Notes under the pieces: generated by a model
What the model was told of the DNA's origin: nothing
Seen by the model: only the letters and a program-made list of their open reading frames with translations
Databases searched by the model: none
Source of the DNA: Pseudomonas sp. B21-056
Lineage (GTDB): Bacteria; Pseudomonadota; Gammaproteobacteria; Pseudomonadales; Pseudomonadaceae
DNA length: 64,000 nt
Assembly (NCBI RefSeq): GCF_026016325.1
Contig: NZ_CP087203.1
Location: 806,001 to 870,000 of the forward strand
Direction of reading: 5' to 3'
Shown: piece by piece, positions 742 to 61,193 of the stretch
Numbering within the stretch: the stretch's first letter is position 1
How the letters are laid out: each line of letters opens with the position of its first letter
Program-made: the position numbers and the translations under genes

Positions 742-770
742 TTGACAGAAATAAATCATTGCACAATACT
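742..770 (+). promoter_or_regulatory. Candidate sigma-70 promoter of the six-gene operon
   Basis: A perfect -35 TTGACA (742-747), 17 bp spacing and AATACT (765-770) as -10. The first gene starts at 812 after a good ribosome binding site (AAGGAG at 798-803). Confidence 0.6.
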
Positions 771-811: not shown

Positions 812-1774
812 ATGCCTTCGCAGGAAACATGCGTACTTACCTCTGCCGGCCTTAAAAAGTTGGCGCTGAATCAAGAATGTCGAGAGGCTTTCAACAAAGA
901 CTCGCTGTTCTTCAAATTATTCGAGCGAGCCGCTCAGCGCTATATAGTCTCGTCGAACCTGGAAAGCCTCCCCGATAAGCTGAAACTGCTCTGCGACAAG
1001 GGTTATCAGCTCGGCGTCGAATATGTCGGCGAAGAAAACCATGACCCGCGCGTCGTACAGTCTTTTGTCGATGAATACCTGGCGTCCATCCAGACTTTCG
1101 CCAAAGCCGGATTAACGCCCCAGTTAGGTTTCGATTTAAGTGCGGTAGGGATGCTGATATCCCAGGAAACCGCTTATCGCAACGCCACTGCAATCTTGTC
1201 CGCCGCCGCAAAACATAATATTCCTGTGATGATCAGCATGGAACATTCTTCGGCGGTCGATAAGATCCTGGAAGTGTATTCCCAATTGGCACCCGATCAT
1301 TCCAATATTGGCCTAACTGTGCAGGCACACTTGCATAGAACCGTGAATGATCTGCCCGCCCTTATCCGTTATGGCCGCAAGATCAGATTGGTCAAGGGCG
1401 TCTATAACGAAGCGCCTGGAATCGCTCTTCCCCGGGGCGCGGAACTTGATGAACGCTATCTGAAACTGCTGGCGTCCATCCTGGACGCCGGGGTTCCGGT
1501 CAGTTGCGCGACGCAGGATCCAGACCTGATCAAGCGCCTCTTTGAAGAAGGTTTTCACTCCCGCATCGAGGAACTGGAAATGCTCCACGGCGTGCAACCC
1601 GAAGCGTTGCGCAAAGCCAAGGATGCAGGGTTGGCCTGTCGTATCGCGGCGGTCTATGGCGATAGCTGGTACCTGCATTTCCTGCATCGGCTGGCGGAGT
1701 CGCCGGTAAACGTCCTCGAGGCCCTGGCCGACTTCTACGATCCTTCTCGCATTGTTTTTGGCGCAGGTTATTAA
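812..1774 (+). CDS. Proline dehydrogenase-like flavoenzyme (stand-alone PRODH fold)
   Basis: Predicted FAD-dependent oxidation of proline or a related imino acid. The 320-residue length fits monofunctional PRODH rather than bifunctional PutA. Family motifs visible are RLVKGVYNE (classical RLVKGAY..E), CATQDPDLI in place of the usual ATH segment, EMLHGV, and the C-terminal VYGDSWYLHFLHRLAESP, which corresponds to the V.YG..W..Y..RRL.E.P substrate-binding helix. The start is supported by AAGGAG nine bases upstream. It is the first gene of a six-gene operon and has no P5C dehydrogenase partner. This suggests a biosynthetic rather than catabolic role, with substrate unknown. The VYNE and ATQ variations may mean a modified substrate. 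Confidence 0.75.
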   Translation: MPSQETCVLTSAGLKKLALNQECREAFNKDSLFFKLFERAAQRYIVSSNLESLPDKLKLLCDKGYQLGVEYVGEENHDPRVVQSFVDEYLASIQTFAKAGLTPQLGFDLSAVGMLISQETAYRNATAILSAAAKHNIPVMISMEHSSAVDKILEVYSQLAPDHSNIGLTVQAHLHRTVNDLPALIRYGRKIRLVKGVYNEAPGIALPRGAELDERYLKLLASILDAGVPVSCATQDPDLIKRLFEEGFHSRIEELEMLHGVQPEALRKAKDAGLACRIAAVYGDSWYLHFLHRLAESPVNVLEALADFYDPSRIVFGAGY

Positions 1775-1784
1775 CGGAGCATTT

Positions 1785-2846
1785 ATGTTTATCGATCTCA
1801 GAAGCGATACGGTAACCAAGCCAACGGAAGGCATGCGCAAGGCGATTTATCAGGCGGAAGTGGGTGATGACTGCTTCGGTGAAGACCCGACGGTGCGCGC
1901 ATTGGAAGAATACTGTGCCCAGTACTTCCAGAAGGAAGCGGCACTGTTCACTTCTGGCGGCACATTGAGCAACCAGTTGGCTATCAAGGCCATGACGAAC
2001 CCGGGCGACGAGATATTCCTGGACGCCTCGTACCACATCAACTTCTATGAATCCGCCTCGACCTCGGCGTTTTCCGGGGTCAACTTTTCGCTTTCAACCC
2101 ATGACAACGGGTTGTTTACCGTCAGTGACCTGGAAAAACTCCATGCCTCCAAATGCCGTTGGAGCCAGAACTACGCCCTGCCACGGGTGGTGGTGATCGA
2201 GAACACGCTCGGCTGCAAAGGCGGCGCAATCTTCCCGCTGCAACAGATGAACGATGTCTTTGCCTATGCCCAGGATATCGGCGCCTATCGTTACCTGGAT
2301 GGCGCACGCATCCTCCATGCGTCCATCGCGTCCGGTATTGATGTGACGTCGTATACCGACAACGCCGATCTTTTGTCCATGTGCCTGTCCAAGGGGTTGG
2401 GCGCGCCGATCGGTTCGATCATGGTGGGTTCCGAGGAGCTGATACAGCGAGCCAAGAAATACCGCAAATGGTTCGGCGGCGACTTGCACCAGGCCGGCAT
2501 GATGGCGGCTGCGGGCCTGTACGCGATGCACAATCATGTCGAGCGCCTGGCCGAAGACCATGAACACGCCGCGTTGCTGCATCAATTGCTCAACGACATC
2601 GACGAAGCGCCCGCCCGTTATAAGGGCACCAACATGGTGACCCTGGATATTGCCTCGCTGGACATCACCCCGGTGCAGTTCGCGGGCTACCTGCGCAGGC
2701 AAGGCGTGGGTGGGCTGCCTTATAACGCCAGGGAAATGCGCTTCATGCCGCATATCAACATTACCCGCGACGATATCCACAAAGCCGCCGGTATTATCAA
2801 GGATGCCGTTCGTGCGCTCAGCCAGGCCGGGGAGACGATCAAGTGA
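1785..2846 (+). CDS. Threonine aldolase-like PLP enzyme
   Basis: Fold type I PLP enzyme of the low-specificity threonine aldolase / beta-eliminating lyase family. It would catalyse reversible aldol cleavage or formation of a beta-hydroxy-alpha-amino acid. The N-terminus IDLRSDTVTKPT is diagnostic, GGTLSNQ is the phosphate-binding turn, and SKGLGAPIGS holds the PLP lysine. The length of 353 residues is normal. The chosen ATG at 1785 follows GGAG and is preferred to an in-frame upstream codon lying inside the previous gene. It is 10 bp from the proline dehydrogenase-like gene and overlaps the next gene by 4 bp. In this setting it may condense glycine with an aldehyde, perhaps one made by the neighbouring flavoenzyme (inference). 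Confidence 0.8.
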   Translation: MFIDLRSDTVTKPTEGMRKAIYQAEVGDDCFGEDPTVRALEEYCAQYFQKEAALFTSGGTLSNQLAIKAMTNPGDEIFLDASYHINFYESASTSAFSGVNFSLSTHDNGLFTVSDLEKLHASKCRWSQNYALPRVVVIENTLGCKGGAIFPLQQMNDVFAYAQDIGAYRYLDGARILHASIASGIDVTSYTDNADLLSMCLSKGLGAPIGSIMVGSEELIQRAKKYRKWFGGDLHQAGMMAAAGLYAMHNHVERLAEDHEHAALLHQLLNDIDEAPARYKGTNMVTLDIASLDITPVQFAGYLRRQGVGGLPYNAREMRFMPHINITRDDIHKAAGIIKDAVRALSQAGETIK

Positions 2847-4147
2847 TCTACAAGAAAAATGTCGTCCTGATCGTCGATGCCTATTCGATCGGCAGCCTGA
2901 TCGCCCCTGCATTCATTTCCCGTGGATTCGATTGCGTGCATCTGCGTTCGACCGCCAACGTCAACGCGTTCTACAAACCCTGGTTTCGCCCCGCCGATTT
3001 TATCGACGATATTCTCTACAGCTCGGATGCCGAGTTGCGTCAGGCCTTGTCCGATTATTCGGTCCAGTTCGTACTCGCTGGTTGCGAGTTCGGTGTAGAG
3101 CTGGCCGCCCACCTGGCCGAGCTGTTCGACGTGACGCGACGCAATGATCCGCGCCACGCCATTCGCTGGCGCGACAAGTTTGAAATGCACGAGGCTTTGC
3201 AACAGGCCGGCGTGCGATCGATCCGGCATTTCAAGTCGGGGTCGTTGACGGCCATTCAGGAGTGGGTGAAAGAGCAGAGAATCCTGCCCGTGGTGTTGAA
3301 GCCGATCAAAAGCGCCGGCTCCGACAATATCCATATCTGCACCTGTGAGAGCGAAGTCGAGCGGGCTTTCGAGGCGATCAAGTCGAGCCGGAATCTTTTT
3401 CTCGAAAGCAACGAAGAGGTTCTGGTTCAGCAGTACCTGGACAACTCGGACTTCCGCTCGGAACTGTCGGCGAGCAAGTCCAGCGATGTGGATATCGAAT
3501 ATTGCGTCAACACCGTGAGTGTCGATGGCCAGCACTATGTCAGCGAAATCATCCGTGTTTATCGCACGCGGATTGGTGATTCGCCGGTGCACGACTACAA
3601 CCAGTTGATGTGCCCGGTGGACAATGCCGATGTCTACGCTCGCCTGTCCCACTACATTTTTTCCGTGCTCGATGCACTCGGCATCCGGCAAGGGGTTGGT
3701 CACAGCGAACTGATGATTGTCGACGATGAGCCGGTACTGCTTGAAACCGCGGCACGCATGCCGGGCGGTATCGATCTGTCGGCCTACACCCGGGCCCTGG
3801 GGCATAACCAGTTGAGTCTGTGGATCGACTCGCTGGTCAATCCACAGGCCTTTCTCGATTACCGTCAGCGGCCGAGAACCAGGCTCTACTTCCATTCAAG
3901 TTGCGTGTTCCTGATCGCCCGGCAGGCCGGCCCGATCAAGCGGGCGCCCGAGCTGACGCGGTGGAAGGCGATTGCAGGGGTGCACAGCATCAAGATCCAG
4001 GATGAGGGTGTGCTCAAGGAAACCGTTTCCCTGGAAAACTGCCCGGGCCACGTTTTCATCCTCGGTCATGATCGCGCCGCCATCCAGCAAAGCATCGAGT
4101 TGCTGCGCGAGGATGAGCCCGGCGTCTACAGGGCCATGCTGACATGA
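2843..4147 (+). CDS. ATP-grasp ligase (amino-acid or dipeptide ligase-like)
   Basis: ATP-grasp enzymes activate a carboxylate as acyl phosphate and couple it to an amine. The protein has 434 residues. An N-terminal pre-ATP-grasp Rossmann part is followed by a nucleotide-binding strand (LPVVLKPIKSAGSDNI, about residues 148-163). The metal-binding segment LLETAARMPGG (about 302-312) resembles the E.N.R.PGG motif of L-amino acid ligases and of biotin carboxylase-like enzymes. It starts with GTG overlapping the previous TGA (GTGA), preceded by GGGGAGA. The MFS gene directly downstream is reminiscent of dipeptide antibiotic loci, where ligase and exporter are paired. Substrates cannot be read from the sequence. 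Confidence 0.75.
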   Translation: MIYKKNVVLIVDAYSIGSLIAPAFISRGFDCVHLRSTANVNAFYKPWFRPADFIDDILYSSDAELRQALSDYSVQFVLAGCEFGVELAAHLAELFDVTRRNDPRHAIRWRDKFEMHEALQQAGVRSIRHFKSGSLTAIQEWVKEQRILPVVLKPIKSAGSDNIHICTCESEVERAFEAIKSSRNLFLESNEEVLVQQYLDNSDFRSELSASKSSDVDIEYCVNTVSVDGQHYVSEIIRVYRTRIGDSPVHDYNQLMCPVDNADVYARLSHYIFSVLDALGIRQGVGHSELMIVDDEPVLLETAARMPGGIDLSAYTRALGHNQLSLWIDSLVNPQAFLDYRQRPRTRLYFHSSCVFLIARQAGPIKRAPELTRWKAIAGVHSIKIQDEGVLKETVSLENCPGHVFILGHDRAAIQQSIELLREDEPGVYRAMLT

Positions 4148-5358
4148 GCGACGTGTCGGGAGAGCTGGCCGTGCAGGACGGGGCCAAGGTCTATACGAGG
4201 CCTGTGATGCTGCTGCTGTCGGCGACGTTTATCCTGACCGTTGCCCGGGCCCTGGCGTTGCCTTATCTGGTCGTCTATTGCTCCCAGGTTTTCGGCCTGG
4301 GCGTGACGGATATCGGCCTTGTGGTCGGCGGCGCGCTGATCGTCAGCTCGCTGCTGGGGGTCTATGGCGGTTTTCTGGTGGACAGGTTTTCCAACTATCG
4401 GATCCTGCTCGGTGCGGCCACCTTGTTTGCCCTGGCATTTGCCGTGGCCTACCAGGTTGCCAGCCTGGTGCCGTTCATCATTGCGATCGTGGCGGTGAAC
4501 CTGTCCTATGCGGTGATCGATATCGCCGTGAAGTCAGGTATAGGTTTGCTGGTGATTCCCGATAAAAGGGGCAGTGTATTTTCCATGAAATACACGCTGA
4601 CCAATGTCGGTTACGCCATCGGTCCCTTTCTGGGCGTGTTGTTTGCCAAGATCAGTCCCGGCCTGCCCTTTGCCGTTTCGGCGCTGATCGGCGTGGTGTT
4701 CGTGGGACTGTACAGCGTACTGGGCGAGCGCCTTCCCCGGGGAGCAAGCGCGGAGCGTCCGAACAATGACTTTGTCCGTGTACTGGTTCATCTGGCGCGT
4801 CATTACCGACTGGTCTGCTTTACGATCGGCGGCGTTCTCAGTGCGATTGTATTCGGACAGTTCACCGCCTATCTCTCGCAATACCTGATCGTGACCAGCG
4901 ACCCGGAAAATACCTATCGGATCATCAATTACCTGGTCACCACCAACGCTTGCGTCGTCATCGGCCTGCAATACCTGATCGGCTCCAGGATCCACCCGAA
5001 CAACCTGTTTCGCATGTTGCTGCTGGGCATGTTGTTTTTCATCACCGGGCTCATGGGGTTCGCTTATGCACAGGCCTGGATGGTCTGGGTGGTTGCCATG
5101 ATCATTTTCACCGTGGGGGAAATCATCATCATCCCGGCGGAGTATCTGTTCATTGACTACATCGCACCGGAAGACATGCGAGGCGTGTACTACGGCGCGC
5201 AGAACCTGTCCAACCTGGGGGCGGCACTGGGGCCGGTATTGTGTGGCGCGGTGTTGTCGTTGTATGCGCCGCAGACCATGTTCTACGTCCTGTCGCTGTG
5301 CGTGGTCGCCGCCAGCCTGTTCTATTTCCTGGGTTCCAGGCGCTGGGGGAATGCATGA
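4144..5358 (+). CDS. MFS transporter, probable exporter of the cluster product
   Basis: A 404-residue integral membrane protein with about 12 hydrophobic segments in two halves. A basic loop after the second and third helices (GGFLVDRFSNYR) corresponds to the MFS motif A region. It overlaps the ligase gene by ATGA and the next gene by ATGA, so it is translationally coupled inside the operon. Export or self-resistance for the cluster product is inferred from position; import cannot be excluded. Confidence 0.75.
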   Translation: MSDVSGELAVQDGAKVYTRPVMLLLSATFILTVARALALPYLVVYCSQVFGLGVTDIGLVVGGALIVSSLLGVYGGFLVDRFSNYRILLGAATLFALAFAVAYQVASLVPFIIAIVAVNLSYAVIDIAVKSGIGLLVIPDKRGSVFSMKYTLTNVGYAIGPFLGVLFAKISPGLPFAVSALIGVVFVGLYSVLGERLPRGASAERPNNDFVRVLVHLARHYRLVCFTIGGVLSAIVFGQFTAYLSQYLIVTSDPENTYRIINYLVTTNACVVIGLQYLIGSRIHPNNLFRMLLLGMLFFITGLMGFAYAQAWMVWVVAMIIFTVGEIIIIPAEYLFIDYIAPEDMRGVYYGAQNLSNLGAALGPVLCGAVLSLYAPQTMFYVLSLCVVAASLFYFLGSRRWGNA

Positions 5359-6470
5359 TTCATTTCAACACGGCGGGTTCGGGGCTCATGTCCAGCGAGA
5401 CGCTGGATCGGATGCAGCGTTACTTGCAGGAAGAGTTCGAGTTGGGCGCCTATGAAACCGAACTGAATCATTCGCCCGTGCTGGACACCGAAGTCTATGA
5501 AAGCATTGGCCGATTGCTGGGTGCCAATGCACGCAACATTGCCCTGTTCGATGGGGCGACCAAGGCCTGGGTGACCGCGCTGGAGTCGCTGACCTGGACC
5601 GAGGGCGCACGGGTTCTGGTCACGCCTTACGAATACGCGGGCAACCTGATTGCACTGTCGACGTTGCAGCGTCTGCATGGGGTGGTGGTCGAAGTGATGC
5701 CGCTGCTGGCCGACGGCAACCTGGACCTGCAATGGCTGGCCCGGCACATGAGCGCGGAGGTCAAGCTGGTCTCGCTCGTCCATGTGCCTTCCTGTTGCGG
5801 CATCGTGAATGACGTCGTCGCGGTGGGGAACATTCTGCGTGATTACCCTTGCCTGTATTTTGTCGATGCCTGTCAGTCGGCGGGCATGCTCGCACTGGAT
5901 GTGCGGGCCATCGGCTGCGATGTATTGACGGCGGCCGGCAGGAAGTTCCTCTGTGGACCGAGAGGCACGGGATTCGCCTATCTTTCCGAGTGCTTCCTGG
6001 CGTCTGCACAACCGCGTTTCAGCGACCTCGGCCGGGCCAGTGTCGATCTGTCCGGCGTGGTCCATCGGCGTATCGATGATGCCCGTGGTTATGAGTTTGC
6101 CGAACGCAACAATGCGGCAGTGCTGGGCTTGAACCAGGCGATCAAGGAACGCCTGTCGAATGCCTACGGTGAAGAGTCCGACCTCTACCAATATCTTTTC
6201 CAGCGTCTGGCCCGGATGCCTGACATCCACTTGATTGCGCCAGGTACGCAGCATCAGGGAATCATCGCTTTTATTCATGCCCGCTGTGCGGCGACGGAAG
6301 TCGTCGGCTACCTGCGCACCCGAGGTGTCAACAGTTGGCCGGGGTATGCCTCCCATACGCCGTACTTTATGTTGAAGCAGGGGCATGAGCGTTTCGTGCG
6401 GATCTCCATCAACGCTCGGAACAGCGTTCGTGAGGCGGATGAGTTCATCGCCTTGCTGGCGCAGATATAA
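5355..6470 (+). CDS. Class V aminotransferase-fold PLP enzyme (cysteine desulfurase / isopenicillin N epimerase-like)
   Basis: A PLP enzyme of about 371 residues. The cofactor aspartate lies in YFVDACQSAG and the Schiff-base lysine in AGRKFLCGPRGTGF (around residue 197), both typical of the NifS/CsdA-like and epimerase-like class V group. The start MIHFNTAGSG at 5355 overlaps the MFS stop (ATGA) and begins with the family's usual FNTAG opening; a longer in-frame extension would lie wholly in the transporter gene. Family members perform desulfuration, epimerisation, beta-elimination or hydrolysis, so the reaction here is open. It ends 80 bp before the desaturase gene. Confidence 0.75.
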   Translation: MIHFNTAGSGLMSSETLDRMQRYLQEEFELGAYETELNHSPVLDTEVYESIGRLLGANARNIALFDGATKAWVTALESLTWTEGARVLVTPYEYAGNLIALSTLQRLHGVVVEVMPLLADGNLDLQWLARHMSAEVKLVSLVHVPSCCGIVNDVVAVGNILRDYPCLYFVDACQSAGMLALDVRAIGCDVLTAAGRKFLCGPRGTGFAYLSECFLASAQPRFSDLGRASVDLSGVVHRRIDDARGYEFAERNNAAVLGLNQAIKERLSNAYGEESDLYQYLFQRLARMPDIHLIAPGTQHQGIIAFIHARCAATEVVGYLRTRGVNSWPGYASHTPYFMLKQGHERFVRISINARNSVREADEFIALLAQI

Positions 6471-6550
6471 CCCGACGCAGGGCACGAAACTTCAAGGCAA
6501 GGACCGTGGGCGTCTGTATTGATCACGTTGAATCACGAAAGGGAATTCTG

Positions 6551-7537
6551 ATGAACGATATGACCAGGTTTAATCCTTCAGCTGAACTAAGGCAGCGCTT
6601 GCGACCCCTGTACCACAAGGATAACTGGCACTGGCTGGTTGCCCTTGGCGCAGACTTGCTGGTCATTGCCTCGGCAATCTACCTGAGCAATCGCTACAAC
6701 GTCTTGTATCCGCTGGCACTGCTCTTCATTGGCTCCCGACAACGAGCCCTCGCATCGCTTCTGCACGAAGCGGCGCACATGACCCTGGCCCGGAGCAAAG
6801 TAGTCAACAAGTGGGTCGGCGAGTACCTGCTGGCCTATCCCATCTTCCAGAACTACGAAGCGTACCGGCGCTCCCATGTGCAGATGCATCACCACCACCT
6901 GGGTGATCAGGACAAGGACCCCGACCATCGCTTCTACATCGAATCCGGCCTGTATGAAGCGCAGGATCGCCTGGACTTCCTGTTCCGGCATCTGTTCAGG
7001 AGCGTGACGCTGGTCAATACCTACAAGTACTTCCTCTACCTGGTAAAGAATCGGGCCGGTGACATCCTTGCCAACCCGCTACAAGGTGTGAAGCTCCTGG
7101 CAGTGCATGGGGTCATCCTGCTGCTGTTGAGCTATTTCGTCGGTCCATGGGGCTATGTCCTGTTCTGGTTGATTCCTTACTTCACGGCCTTCCAGGTGAT
7201 TGGCTGGTTCTCCGAGATTTCCGAGCACTTTGGCATGTTCGGCGTCTACAAGGAGGAGGTGAAACTGACGCGCAATCGCTTCCCGACCCTGCCCGAAAGA
7301 CTGTTCATTGGTATGCATGGCGACAACTATCACCTGACGCACCATCTGTTTGCGGGCGTTCCATTCTGGAACCTGAAGCAGGCACACCAGGTATTGATGG
7401 AGGATGAGAGCTATGCGGCCGCCAATCGCGGCTGTGGTGGGATTTTTACGGCGAGGAGAGATGCCAGGTCCAGCATCCATCAGATACTCGAGGCGTATCG
7501 AAGCGGCAAGATCAGCGCTATCAACGTCACGGTGTAG
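6551..7537 (+). CDS. Fatty acid desaturase-like diiron enzyme
   Basis: A membrane-associated non-haem diiron desaturase/hydroxylase of 328 residues. All three histidine boxes are present: HEAAH (about 72-76), HVQMHHHH (about 109-116) and HGDNYHLTHH (about 256-265), with hydrophobic helices between the second and third. The ATG at 6551 follows AAAGGGAA. It is the last gene of the operon and is followed by a hairpin. Relatives of this family act on small metabolites as well as on lipids (hydroxylation, desaturation, acetylenation). Being next to amino-acid enzymes, it probably tailors a small molecule; this is an inference. Confidence 0.75.
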   Translation: MNDMTRFNPSAELRQRLRPLYHKDNWHWLVALGADLLVIASAIYLSNRYNVLYPLALLFIGSRQRALASLLHEAAHMTLARSKVVNKWVGEYLLAYPIFQNYEAYRRSHVQMHHHHLGDQDKDPDHRFYIESGLYEAQDRLDFLFRHLFRSVTLVNTYKYFLYLVKNRAGDILANPLQGVKLLAVHGVILLLLSYFVGPWGYVLFWLIPYFTAFQVIGWFSEISEHFGMFGVYKEEVKLTRNRFPTLPERLFIGMHGDNYHLTHHLFAGVPFWNLKQAHQVLMEDESYAAANRGCGGIFTARRDARSSIHQILEAYRSGKISAINVTV

Positions 7538-7553
7538 CGGCGGGTTGCGGCAC

Positions 7554-7586
7554 TGCGCTGTGTTCGCATCGAGCGAGCACAGCGCA
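7554..7586. terminator. Hairpin between convergent genes
   Basis: TGCGCTGTG (7554-7562) pairs with CACAGCGCA (7578-7586). It lies between the end of the desaturase gene and the end of the minus-strand cupin gene and could end both transcripts. There is no long T run, so strength is uncertain. Confidence 0.5.
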
Positions 7587-7611
7587 CCGGCCGCAGGCGT
7601 ATCGAACCGAA

Positions 7612-48208: not shown

Positions 48209-49527
48209 AATCCCCACAAAACTATCCCAGGCCCTGCATCTGTCGCATCGCCTCGGAGCGTAACATTTGCTCGGTCTCCTCCAGCGCTTGTTGAGCCTCC
48301 GATGGTGGCCGACAACGCCAGTACTCCAGACCCAGGCGCCATAGGGACAAGACATGTTTGTCTTTAACGCTATTGCTTTGAAAACGCCTCTCATGATCGG
48401 CCTCGCGGGCCTGGAAGCCGGTTAGAAAAATAATGTAGTTGGCGAGCATTGCGATCAGGAGCAGCACCTCAATGCGTTTCGGGCAACGGCTGCGATGCAG
48501 GTTCAGGCCGATGCCCAGGTGCTCGCTTTTGACATCCCGAAAGCCTTCCTCAATCTGCATTCGCTTCTTGTAAAGCGCTACCACCTTCGCTGGATTCCAT
48601 TCCAGCTCAGGTAGATTGCTGGCCAATAACCACGGCTCCAGTTCACGCCGCGCTGACTGACGGCTGAGTTTGTTTTTGGCGATTGATCCTGTAACGCGCT
48701 TGTGTTTGCGGCCCTTGGCCGGGTGCCTGACGCAATACAAATGAATGAAGTGTGGGGCACTCTGAGTCATTTCGATCAAGCCCAGGGATTTGGGTGAGGC
48801 CGTCGCTAAGGCGTAAAGATTTTTCACCGGTTTCCACGCTTGAGAGTCGCGACGGCATAACTCACGGTTGCGGATTCGCCCCACGTAATACCAGCCCTGG
48901 GCCTCGATGGCTTTGAACCAGGGACGTCGGAAACCAGCGTCAGATACGAGCACCGGAATGCAGTCAGCAGGCAACATCAGCGCCAACGCTTGCAACATCC
49001 GCTTCTGGTGGGCCGGACAGCTCTCGCGCTCGTGAACGGATTCATAAATTGGGTATGAGCGCCCGGCAAAAGGAATGGCAGCTCTTAACAAAAATGCTTT
49101 GCCAGGCGCATCGATTCTGGACCAGTCGACCAGAATCAGCGGATGCTTCAATGTCCCTAACAGGGCTCGCAAAATGACCCAGTAGAACAGCGGTCGCTCA
49201 GCTTGCAGGCGAGCATCTCCAAGCAATCGGTCCACTCGCTTTATCGAGTGTTTGGGGTATGCCTGACCCAGCATGGCACGACCGATTCCGGTCAAGGTCA
49301 GGCGCCGGCCTTGCAGCAATGCGCTGACACAACACATCAGGGCGGTCAGGCGGCGAGAGTGGAGCGTGGGCAGTGCTTGGGCGAGTGCATTGTGTAAAAA
49401 TTGGATGGCTTGCATGAGTTCGGGATCTTGCTTTTGTGTGGTGCAAACCAAGCTGCCGACTCATGCAGGCTTCTTCAATATTCCAACTTCTTGATTTCAT
49501 GTAGGAAAAAGTGGGGATTCCTCAGGG
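48201..49527 (-). mobile_element. IS4-family insertion sequence, copy 1
   Basis: 1327 bp bounded by perfect 17-bp terminal inverted repeats CCCTGAGGAATCCCCAC (48201-48217) and its complement (49511-49527). It encodes one transposase on the minus strand. The flanks (GGTCTGT on the left, ACAGACC on the right) are inverted copies rather than a direct duplication, unlike copy 2. The 206 bp after it (49528-49733) hold no gene. Confidence 0.9.
48222..49451 (-). CDS. IS4-family transposase
   Basis: A 409-residue DDE transposase with LILVDWSRID (first Asp), VSDAGFRRP (second Asp) and YKKRMQIEEGFRDVKS, which is the IS4 Y-R-E-K signature carrying the catalytic Glu. It appears full length and intact. 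It differs from the copy at 50966-52195 at about eight residues (for example GDAR against GNAR, and LANY against LAHY). Confidence 0.93.
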   Translation of the reverse strand: MVCTTQKQDPELMQAIQFLHNALAQALPTLHSRRLTALMCCVSALLQGRRLTLTGIGRAMLGQAYPKHSIKRVDRLLGDARLQAERPLFYWVILRALLGTLKHPLILVDWSRIDAPGKAFLLRAAIPFAGRSYPIYESVHERESCPAHQKRMLQALALMLPADCIPVLVSDAGFRRPWFKAIEAQGWYYVGRIRNRELCRRDSQAWKPVKNLYALATASPKSLGLIEMTQSAPHFIHLYCVRHPAKGRKHKRVTGSIAKNKLSRQSARRELEPWLLASNLPELEWNPAKVVALYKKRMQIEEGFRDVKSEHLGIGLNLHRSRCPKRIEVLLLIAMLANYIIFLTGFQAREADHERRFQSNSVKDKHVLSLWRLGLEYWRCRPPSEAQQALEETEQMLRSEAMRQMQGLG

Positions 49528-50944: not shown

Positions 50945-52271
50945 CCCTGAGGAATCCCCACAAATCTATCCCAGGCCCTGCATCTGTCGCATCGCCTCGG
51001 AGCGTAACATTTGCTCGGTCTCCTCCAGCACCTGTTGAGCCTCCGATGGTGGCCGATAACGCCAGTACTCCAGACCCAGGCGCCATAGGGACAAGACATG
51101 TTTGTTTTTAACGCTATTGCTTTGAAAACGCCTCTCATGATCGGCCTCGCGGGCCTGGAAGCCGGTTAGAAAAATAATGTAATGGGCGAGCATTGCGATC
51201 AGGAGCAGCACCTCAATGCGTTTCGGGCAACGGCTGCGATGCAGGTTCAGGCCGATGCCCAGGTGCTCGCTTTTGACATCCCGAAAGCCTTCCTCAATCT
51301 GCATTCGCTTCTTGTAAAGCGCTACCACCTTCGCTGGATTCCATTCCAGCTCAGGTAGATTGCTGGCCAATAACCACGGCTCCAGTTCACGCCGCGCTGA
51401 CTGGCGGCTGAGTTTGTTTTTGGCGATTGATCCTGTAACGCGCTTGTGTTTGCGGCCCTTGGCCGGGTGCCTGACGCAATACAAATGAATGAAGTGCGGG
51501 GCACTCTGAGTCATTTCGATCAAGCCCAGGGATTTGGGTGAGGCCGTCGCTAAGGCGTAAAGTTTTTTCACCGGTTTCCACGCTTGAGAGTCGCGACGGC
51601 ATAACTCACGGTTGCGGATTCGCCCCACGTAATACCAGCCCTGGGCCTCGATGGCTTTGAACCAGGGACGTCGGAAACCAGCGTCAGACACAAGCACTGG
51701 AATGCAGTCAGCAGGCAACATCAGCGCCAATGCTTGCAACATCCGCTTCTGGTGGGCCGGACAGCTCTCGCGCTCGTGAACGGATTCATAAATTGGGTAT
51801 GAGCGCCCGGCAAAAGGAATGGCAGCTCTTAACAAAAATGCTTTGCCAGGCGCATCGATTCTGGACCAGTCGACCAGAATCAGCGGATGCTTCAATGTCC
51901 CTAACAGGGCTCGCAAAATGACCCAGTAGAACAGCGGTCGCTCAGCTTGCAAGCGAGCATTTCCAAGCAATCGGTCCACTCGCTTTATCGAGTGTTTGGG
52001 ATACGCCTGGCCCCGCATGGCACGACCGATTCCGGTCAAGGTCAGGCGCCGGCCTTGCAGCAATGCGCTGACACAACACATCAGGGCGGTCAGGCGGCGA
52101 GAATGGAGCGTGGGCAGTGCTTGGGTGAGTGCATTGTGTAAAAATTGGATGGCTTGCATGAGTTCGGGATCTTGCTTTTGTGTGGTGCAAACCAAGCTGC
52201 CGACTCATGCAGGCTTCTTCAATATTCCAACTTCTTGATTTCATGTAGGAAATAGTGGGGATTCCTCAGGG
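50945..52271 (-). mobile_element. IS4-family insertion sequence, copy 2
   Basis: 1327 bp, the same length and terminal repeats as copy 1. It is flanked by a probable 5-bp target duplication, TCTGT (50940-50944 and 52272-52276). Removing the element and one TCTGT restores GGTCTGTCCCCGTTTT, a motif similar to those scattered around it. Confidence 0.88.
50966..52195 (-). CDS. IS4-family transposase
   Basis: Intact 409-residue transposase, about 98 percent identical to the product at 48222-49451, with the same DDE residues and Y-R-E-K motif. The eight substitutions are scattered. Both copies look functional, which points to recent transposition within the genome. Confidence 0.93.
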   Translation of the reverse strand: MVCTTQKQDPELMQAIQFLHNALTQALPTLHSRRLTALMCCVSALLQGRRLTLTGIGRAMRGQAYPKHSIKRVDRLLGNARLQAERPLFYWVILRALLGTLKHPLILVDWSRIDAPGKAFLLRAAIPFAGRSYPIYESVHERESCPAHQKRMLQALALMLPADCIPVLVSDAGFRRPWFKAIEAQGWYYVGRIRNRELCRRDSQAWKPVKKLYALATASPKSLGLIEMTQSAPHFIHLYCVRHPAKGRKHKRVTGSIAKNKLSRQSARRELEPWLLASNLPELEWNPAKVVALYKKRMQIEEGFRDVKSEHLGIGLNLHRSRCPKRIEVLLLIAMLAHYIIFLTGFQAREADHERRFQSNSVKNKHVLSLWRLGLEYWRYRPPSEAQQVLEETEQMLRSEAMRQMQGLG

Positions 52272-54225: not shown

Positions 54226-54280
54226 CTAGTCTTCGTCCACCGCTGCCAATTCAGCGGTCGGGTTTAGCAGCTCGGAAATC

Positions 54281-54468
54281 ACGTTAGGCGCATGGCAATC
54301 ACCATGAGTGCGGGCAGCTTTTATCGTCCGAATTCTTATGGCGGCTGTGCGCAGGGCATCTTCGGGTGCGCCGGTTTCCTAACGTACCGGTCTGCTAACC
54401 TGCGCATGGCTGCCACCCACTCGTTTAGCAGCGAGCGTGGCGGCTCCCACTTACGTTAGGAGTGCCCC
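54281..54468 (+). promoter_or_regulatory. Structured mRNA leader with alternative pairings over the ribosome binding site
   Basis: ACGTTAGG occurs twice, at 54281-54288 and at 54453-54460, where it overlaps the TTAGGAG ribosome binding site of the next gene. Both copies are complementary to a single CCTAACGT at 54378-54385, so two mutually exclusive helices can form. One hides the ribosome binding site and the other frees it. Between them lies a nested hairpin, GCTGCCAC (54409-54416) with GTGGCGGC (54437-54444) and CTCG (54420-54423) with CGAG (54432-54435). This resembles a riboswitch or attenuator; I recall similar leaders before related genes in other Pseudomonas but have not compared them here. 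Confidence 0.5.
54292..54459 (+). CDS. Possible 55-codon leader peptide
   Basis: Open frame from ATG 54292 to TAG 54457 within the structured leader. It begins MAITMSAGSFYRPNSYGG, is rich in Ser and Gly, and its stop overlaps the ribosome binding site of the following gene. No good ribosome binding site of its own is visible. Translation of this frame would disrupt the leader hairpins, so it could be a regulatory leader peptide or simply an accident of a structured RNA. Confidence 0.3.
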   Translation: MAITMSAGSFYRPNSYGGCAQGIFGCAGFLTYRSANLRMAATHSFSSERGGSHLR

Positions 54469-60799: not shown

Positions 60800-61193
60800 T
60801 GGTGGAGCCGGGGGGATTTGAACCCCCGTCCGCCAGTACTCCGCTGTCGGTACTACATGCGTAGCCGTGTCTATTAAGTTAACCCTCAGCGACCCGACGG
60901 GCAGGGTGCTTTGGGCGAGTTGTGTAAGTTTTAGCCGCTTCGTCCACAACGTACTGCACGGCGATTCTGTTCTATATGACAATCACTTTGGGTTTACAGA
61001 CATCCCCTGGTGATTGCTGGACCCGAAGGTACCAGAAGGGAAGGGCTAAGGCTGCTTACGCAGCGAGAGCGTATTCCCCGTAGGTTTCGTCATTGGCAAC
61101 TATAGGAAGTTGCAACAGTGGATTTACGAGTTCTGTTACCAACTCGGCATGCACCTAAAGTTTCGCAACCGGCGTCGAATCCTGAACGGCCCC
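60800..61193 (-). ncRNA. ssrA: Transfer-messenger RNA (tmRNA)
   Basis: 394 nt. The 5' end GGGGCCGTTCAGGATTCGAC and the 3' end CCCCCGGCTCCACCA form the tRNA-like acceptor stem, with TTCAAATCC in the T loop. The resume codon GCC at 61097 begins a tag reading frame (61097-61056) encoding ANDETYGEYALAA before TAA. tmRNA with SmpB rescues stalled ribosomes and marks the incomplete protein for proteolysis. The sequence is complete and intact despite lying at a likely integration hot spot. Confidence 0.97.

Follow-up and report, generated by a model that had tools for sequence, protein, structure and literature searches.

A run of six genes in a 64,000-nucleotide window of the Pseudomonas sp. B21-056 genome (positions 806001–870000 of the single 6.45 Mb contig of this host) raises the question of what such an operon makes and from which starting material. 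The window here means this whole stretch of DNA. The first-pass annotation had described an unrecognized biosynthetic operon in which imino acid oxidation, aldol chemistry, ligation and diiron chemistry were combined. The analysis reported here indicates that the operon probably makes a small exported guanidine compound, with arginine and not proline as its probable starting material.

Layout of the operon and families of its products

Six ORFs on the plus strand were found between 812 and 7537, in agreement with the first-pass annotation (Table 1). The starts used for genes B and F are ATG codons internal to longer listed ORFs. Four of the five junctions are tight, as had been stated: A and B are 10 bp apart, and the following pairs overlap by GTGA at 2843 (B/C), ATGA at 4144 (C/D) and ATGA at 5355 (D/E). 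Genes E and F are separated by 80 bp. The one good promoter claimed earlier was recovered as a site that ends 41 bp upstream of the first ATG. However, the region scanned contained 2 promoter-like sites compared with a mean of 4.3 in shuffles. As the site count was not above that of the shuffles, the promoter scan alone was taken as no evidence. The end hairpin was likewise found again, and none of 200 shuffles was equally stable; it has no T-run and was absent from the output of the terminator scan.

Table 1. Positions within the window of the six genes and of the associated signals.
Feature	Position	Strand	Description
Promoter-like site TTGACA-17-AATACT	742-770	+	10/12 positions match
Gene A	812-1774	+	PRODH-fold flavoenzyme with remodeled active site (Pfam Pro_dh)
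Gene B	1785-2846	+	Threonine-aldolase-type PLP enzyme, GntG family (Pfam Beta_elim_lyase)
Gene C	2843-4147	+	ATP-grasp ligase, L-amino acid ligase type (Pfam ATP-grasp_4)
Gene D	4144-5358	+	MFS exporter (Pfam MFS_1)
Gene E	5355-6470	+	Class V PLP enzyme, SufS fold without catalytic Cys (Pfam Aminotran_5)
Gene F	6551-7537	+	Membrane diiron amino acid oxygenase, FA desaturase superfamily, GntB family (Pfam FA_desaturase)
End hairpin	7538-7600	.	Between convergent genes; dG -42.3 kcal/mol, z -4.77

A Pfam scan of the six proteins agreed with the six families named in the first pass, and no NRPS or PKS was found among the six genes. The proposal of an operon that builds a small molecule from an amino acid, equipped with an ATP-grasp ligase and an exporter, was supported. 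The product of gene B scored 304.6 against the subfamily-level model NCBIfam NF041359 (GntG-type aldolase; cut-off 230) and matched L-allo-threonine aldolase (PDB 1jg8) at 4.2e-79. The product of gene C matched an L-amino acid ligase (PDB 30vh) at 1.5e-46 over residues 4–423 of 434; it belongs to the family of L-amino acid ligases and dapdiamide synthase DdaF, but stayed below the cut-off of PRK07206 (289.7 vs. 302) and well under that of DdaF (214.7 vs. 840). For gene D, the score against the YdeE model was 224.8 bits, under the cut-off of 582.

Distribution of the cassette and of its three-gene core

A search with gene C gave 10 named Pseudomonas loci, the closest match being that of Pseudomonas sp. 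PSB18 (97%). All six genes were present in the same order at nine of these loci, including those of P. corrugata, P. mediterranea, P. reactans, P. cedrina and P. mosselii, and the protein identities ranged from 57 to 99%, except for E of locus L007, where a C-terminal piece matched at 46%. In L007, gene E is split by an insert of approximately 2.5 kb with an ORF resembling an IS21-type transposase, a family judged by eye. The tenth locus (L012) retains only part of C together with gene D. The flanks of L003–L006 are those of the window, namely, genes for 3-hydroxyisobutyrate dehydrogenase, a cupin and a LysR regulator, and none of these three was found in the stretches examined of L007–L011 (L010 being a short contig). 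Given these differing flanks, the cassette occupies more than one chromosomal place. The conserved gene order in other Pseudomonas makes the operon more than a chance arrangement. The six genes do co-occur elsewhere, so the absence of co-occurrence that the first-pass annotation had named as grounds for refutation was not observed, and they are a genuine conserved cassette.

In a survey of 398 genomes of the genus, an F homologue (GntB-like; E of 1e-40 or better) was detected in 23. Genes A and C (both at E 1e-40) accompanied it in 16 of the 23, and gene B (E 1e-90) in 11. The version of the window, type 1 (A, B, C and F), was accordingly represented by 11 genomes with F identities of 76–100%, and D and E adjoin F in 10 of them; in the remaining one (L020), the short stretch examined showed no more of E than a C-terminal piece. 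One type 1 genome (G267) carries a second F copy adjoining an exporter gene. Type 2, present in five genomes, starts with a LuxR-type regulator, followed by F, A, C, D and E in this order, and has no B; its proteins are 37–40% (F), 46–47% (A), 30–33% (C), 24–26% (D) and 41–44% (E) identical to those of the window; in one of these genomes (L040), F was detected by tblastn and was absent from the ORF calls. Neither version includes an NRPS or PKS among the cassette genes. The other seven F-bearing genomes were without A or C. Outside the genus, the cassette is rare: gene A at 1e-55 was found in 1 of 398 phylum genomes, which is the host itself. The GntB model at 1e-40 was matched in 5 of 369 class genomes, with the host alone above the cut-off.

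The core that recurs is F, A and E; the aldolase B was encountered in no cassette but type 1. On a plasmid of Streptomyces sp. NBC_01006, the three genes are adjacent, and their neighbors are two ATP-grasp genes, a peptidase, an NRPS protein with A-PCP-C organization (Pfam: A-PCP-condensation) and a P450. On a Pseudosulfitobacter plasmid, genes for Lrp, AzlC and AzlD precede the trio, and the stretch in the record stops after E; a related Roseovarius plasmid carries the trio with a short F and an IS3 element alongside, and no further biosynthetic gene was found beside it. When the proteins A, E and F were used as queries and the best 120 of 183, 2638 and 169 matches, respectively, were considered, the matches listed included F homologues at 50–51% identity from Burkholderia thailandensis, B. 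savannae, B. ubonensis and Chitinimonas naiadis. Equal contig sizes were shared between the lists 23 times for A/E, 12 for A/F, 18 for E/F and three for all, as counted among 120, 119 and 120 listed rows in which short contigs may agree by chance. Judged from these equal contig sizes, the trio is probably co-located in Burkholderia as well. As B. ubonensis and Chromobacterium occurred among the homologue matches, bulgecin was considered as a product; the accessible portion of PMC5472815 gives no gene cluster for it.

Enzymes F, A and E

The product of gene F scored 430.9 bits against NCBIfam NF041365, the equivalog model of the guanitoxin L-arginine gamma-hydroxylase GntB (cut-off 380). Since F matches an arginine hydroxylase, the starting material of the operon is most likely arginine, and the likeliest predicted reaction of F is Arg 4-hydroxylation. 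The first pass had placed this diiron enzyme in the family also found here, FA_desaturase, but had missed its match to GntB. When the GntB model was run on 10 relatives of F, the cut-off was passed by DMT-exporter-linked (487 and 399) and NRPS-linked (383 and 391) proteins and by another type 1 protein (428). The proteins of type 2 (331), Streptomyces (287), Pseudosulfitobacter (288), Robbsia (312) and Eleftheria (348) were below it. Because the F proteins of the type 2, Streptomyces and Pseudosulfitobacter trios fall below the cut-off and the family also takes in proteins of rhizobitoxine-like clusters, the arginine activity of F rests on homology. A tree built from 50 F-type proteins divided the trio-linked enzymes into two groups, one with the F of the window, the Burkholderia-type and some NRPS-linked enzymes, and the other with those of type 2, Streptomyces and Pseudosulfitobacter. 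The latter group joined the rhizobitoxine-type enzymes, but the support for this was weak (87/65) and a long-branch warning was raised.

In the case of A, the AF2 model (pLDDT 93.7) had its best PDB match in the T. thermophilus PRODH 2ekg (TM 0.78, 26% identity, E 7.5e-21), and the D. radiodurans PRODH was also matched. Compared with true PRODHs, the pocket is altered by K99 to D, D133 to S and R288 to H in all 120 homologues listed, with R289 kept; in true PRODHs, the residues at these positions hold the proline carboxylate. The Q of the EFQ motif is E in 117 and D in three of the same homologues. The PutA of the host itself retains K, D, Q and RR. Such a pocket would be expected if the substrate were cationic and lacked the carboxylate of proline. 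As the proline-binding positions are replaced in every listed homologue, proline was rejected as the substrate of A, and the proline oxidation of the first-pass annotation was not supported. The D/S/H pocket is not exclusive to the trio, since a lone Metabacillus PRODH shows the identical pattern with no F or E beside it. Three lone A homologues in clusters resembling enediyne clusters, as judged from their neighbors, vary at the pocket sites.

The product of gene E was nearest in fold to cysteine desulfurases by structure comparison (50 matches listed). The SGHHC of SufS aligns with PGYAS in E, and the catalytic Cys is missing from the C-terminal loop. A Cys at this position occurred in none of the 120 E homologues listed, two of which have one four residues earlier. 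With no Cys, a role as a cysteine desulfurase was rejected. Desulfurases break the Cbeta–gamma bond and release alanine. The fungal enzyme Fgm3, a distant relative, matched E over nearly its whole length (9e-8) and ranked below many desulfurases among the sequence matches; it was absent from the best 60 of 79 matches to the E profile and from the 50 structural matches listed. According to the alignment, the residue that is presumably stacked over the PLP is Tyr in E and His in Fgm3.

Proposed route, competing routes and known systems

The route favored here, as a tentative reading, is Arg to 4-hydroxyarginine, then to Ala and guanidinoacetaldehyde, followed by oxidation, ligation and export; its first step is predicted from sequence, and we infer the others. 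In favor of this route are the GntB score of F, the repeated joint occurrence of F, A and E, the altered pocket of A, and the desulfurase fold and Fgm3 match of E. F would hydroxylate L-arginine at C4, and E would cleave the Cbeta–Cgamma bond of 4-hydroxyarginine to give L-alanine and guanidinoacetaldehyde, as is reported for Fgm3. The aldehyde would cyclize to a carbinolamine with a five-membered ring, and A, as a proline dehydrogenase adapted to a cationic ring that lacks a carboxylate, would oxidize this towards glycocyamidine or guanidinoacetate. The altered pocket of A would suit such a cyclic amine, which has five ring members and no carboxylate. The product would then be coupled to an amino acid by C in an ATP-driven reaction and exported by D. 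In type 1 only, B may add or use a glycine-derived beta-hydroxy amino acid, perhaps from guanidinoacetaldehyde and glycine; alternatively, it may supply an allo-threonine-like partner.

The model for this route is the guanidinoacetate starter pathway of fusaoctaxin in Fusarium (Fgm1, Fgm2 and Fgm3), in which Arg C4 hydroxylation is followed by a PLP lyase, according to the accessible portions of PMC10967133 and PMC10367076. The former has Fgm3 convert 4-hydroxyarginine to "5", in our reading guanidinoacetaldehyde, and L-Ala, with glycociamidine and a "cyclization-based alcohol dehydrogenation" among the later steps (PMC10967133, in part); the latter describes a retro-aldol reaction on gamma-hydroxyarginine (PMC10367076, in part). 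The fungal pathway differs in its P450, where a diiron hydroxylase is present here, and in its NRPS, where an ATP-grasp ligase is present here. It also uses an amidohydrolase, and no Fgm2-like amidohydrolase was found by Pfam among the six genes, which speaks against the favored route. The low rank of Fgm3 among the sequence matches of E, the Tyr of E in place of the His of Fgm3, the F proteins under the GntB cut-off and the lone Metabacillus PRODH count against it as well.

F, A and E may form an undescribed bacterial three-enzyme module, found across Proteobacteria and Actinobacteria, in which arginine would be converted to a guanidine building block via a PRODH-derived flavoenzyme no longer acting on proline and a Cys-less desulfurase-fold lyase. 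The finishing enzymes would vary by lineage: some would have an ATP-grasp ligase, others an NRPS protein, and others no more than an AzlCD exporter. We offer this as a possibility somewhat short of likely. No description of the trio was found in the literature searched, with most subscription papers lying outside that coverage. Should the proposed route be correct, a catabolic flavoenzyme fold has been recruited to guanidine chemistry, and annotations as "proline dehydrogenase family protein" in such clusters mislead. A GntB-family hydroxylase, a D/S/H-type PRODH and a Cys-less class V enzyme provide a searchable signature for arginine-derived metabolites.

An unlikely alternative begins with the same 4-hydroxyarginine, which E would cyclize to enduracididine, as GntC does in guanitoxin biosynthesis; A would oxidize the ring to 2-aminohistidine, and the resulting alpha-amino acid would be coupled by C into a dipeptide. 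The pairing of a GntB-family F with a GntG-family B, shared with guanitoxin, agrees with this, as do the amino-acid-handling partners found elsewhere (AzlC/AzlD, the amino acid ligase and the A-PCP-C NRPS protein). However, GntC is not known to be a class V enzyme, and A has lost the carboxylate-aligned residues that an alpha-carboxylate substrate might need. In the accessible portion of PMC10367076, GntC is compared with VioD, OrfR and AspC. Aminohistidine natural products were not found in the literature searched.

A further alternative, considered improbable, would use the same genes to reach similar end products: after hydroxylation of Arg by F, A would oxidize the alcohol or C–N bond to 4-oxoarginine, and E would cleave this hydrolytically to alanine and guanidinoacetate. 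The precedent is kynureninase, a PLP enzyme of class V whose substrate is a gamma-keto amino acid; its absence from the 50 structural matches listed for E decides nothing. The difficulty lies with A, as PRODH-type enzymes oxidize amines and are not known to oxidize alcohols. The scheme of the first-pass annotation, with imino acid (proline) oxidation, a glycine aldol reaction and late diiron tailoring, agrees with the fold of A and the family of B, but is very improbable given the replaced pocket of A, the lack of B in five of the 16 Pseudomonas genomes that carry both A and C, and the match of F to an arginine hydroxylase.

In line with the first-pass view, neither the libraries nor the literature searched yielded a pathway already described that matches the whole operon, although two members match guanitoxin families. 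As in the gnt cluster of Sphaerospermopsis, a GntB-family Arg gamma-hydroxylase and a GntG-family aldolase, both above the cut-off, lie in one cluster. The operon differs in having PRODH-fold, class V PLP, ATP-grasp and MFS genes instead, and neither GntC, GntD nor the later Gnt enzymes were found among its six proteins (Pfam and NCBIfam). In the loci that we take, from the producer, to be the rhizobitoxine cluster, a diiron enzyme of the same superfamily lies beside PLP enzymes and an exporter. Those loci differ in their AEP-transaminase-like, transsulfuration-type, homoserine succinyltransferase and glutamine synthetase genes, and no PRODH or ATP-grasp gene was listed in the stretches examined. 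Mangotoxin (mboABCDEF, P. syringae) was rejected as the identity of the operon because its genes are different: in the accessible portion of PMC13185094, no PRODH or class V enzyme is named, and MboA is a heme-oxygenase-like enzyme acting on a tripeptide. The likeness of the two lies in a small six-gene operon with ATP-grasp ligases, a diiron oxidase and an arginine-containing peptide (PMC13185094, in part).

GntB-like genes beside exporter or NRPS genes

Diiron enzymes of the gene F family (GntB-like) were found in several other settings. At the loci L042, L043, L044, L045, L061, L064, and L069, the GntB-like gene was paired with an amino-acid-type exporter gene (DMT or LysE), and such two-gene pairs were also carried on plasmids of Peribacillus, Salmonella, and Staphylococcus epidermidis. 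For Priestia and Peribacillus, database records give the GntB-like gene of the pair the name gntB. A possible role of each pair is to produce a single modified amino acid and export it.

In a Pseudomonas locus (L041:8411-14521), the neighbors of the GntB-like gene included a LuxR-type regulator and one C-A-PCP NRPS protein. The product of the GntB-like gene scored 383 bits with the GntB model, barely above the cut-off, and was near-identical to an enzyme named in P. syringae pv. atrofaciens. The GntB-like gene of Eleftheria terrae (L063:11797-13056), the teixobactin producer, was flanked by two NRPS genes, and its product scored 348 bits, which was under the cut-off. A PLP transferase and a gene with a beta-hydroxylase domain occurred in the same stretch. 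This GntB-like gene could bear on enduracididine supply.

Rhizobitoxine-like clusters and lone PRODH-like genes

Two Pseudomonas clusters (L046 and L048) resembled Robbsia/Paraburkholderia plasmid clusters, which we take to be rhizobitoxine clusters. Their type comprised an AEP transaminase-like protein, a PLP transferase, a diiron enzyme, an amidotransferase, LysE, homoserine succinyltransferase, and glutamine synthetase. Lone PRODH-like genes were located within enediyne-looking clusters of Streptomyces plasmids (L056, L058, and L059), and their proteins had still different residues at the pocket positions, i.e., those aligned with the proline-binding residues of true PRODHs.

Other features of the window

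The two transposase genes were of equal length and separated by 1.5 kb. C4 antisense RNA is known from P4/P1-like phages.

Further features located in the window
Feature	Position	Strand	Source
Transposase gene (DDE_Tnp_1)	48222-49451	-	
Transposase gene (DDE_Tnp_1)	50966-52195	-	
C4 antisense RNA and its a1/b1 targets	54226-54420	+	Rfam
tmRNA gene	60800-61193	-
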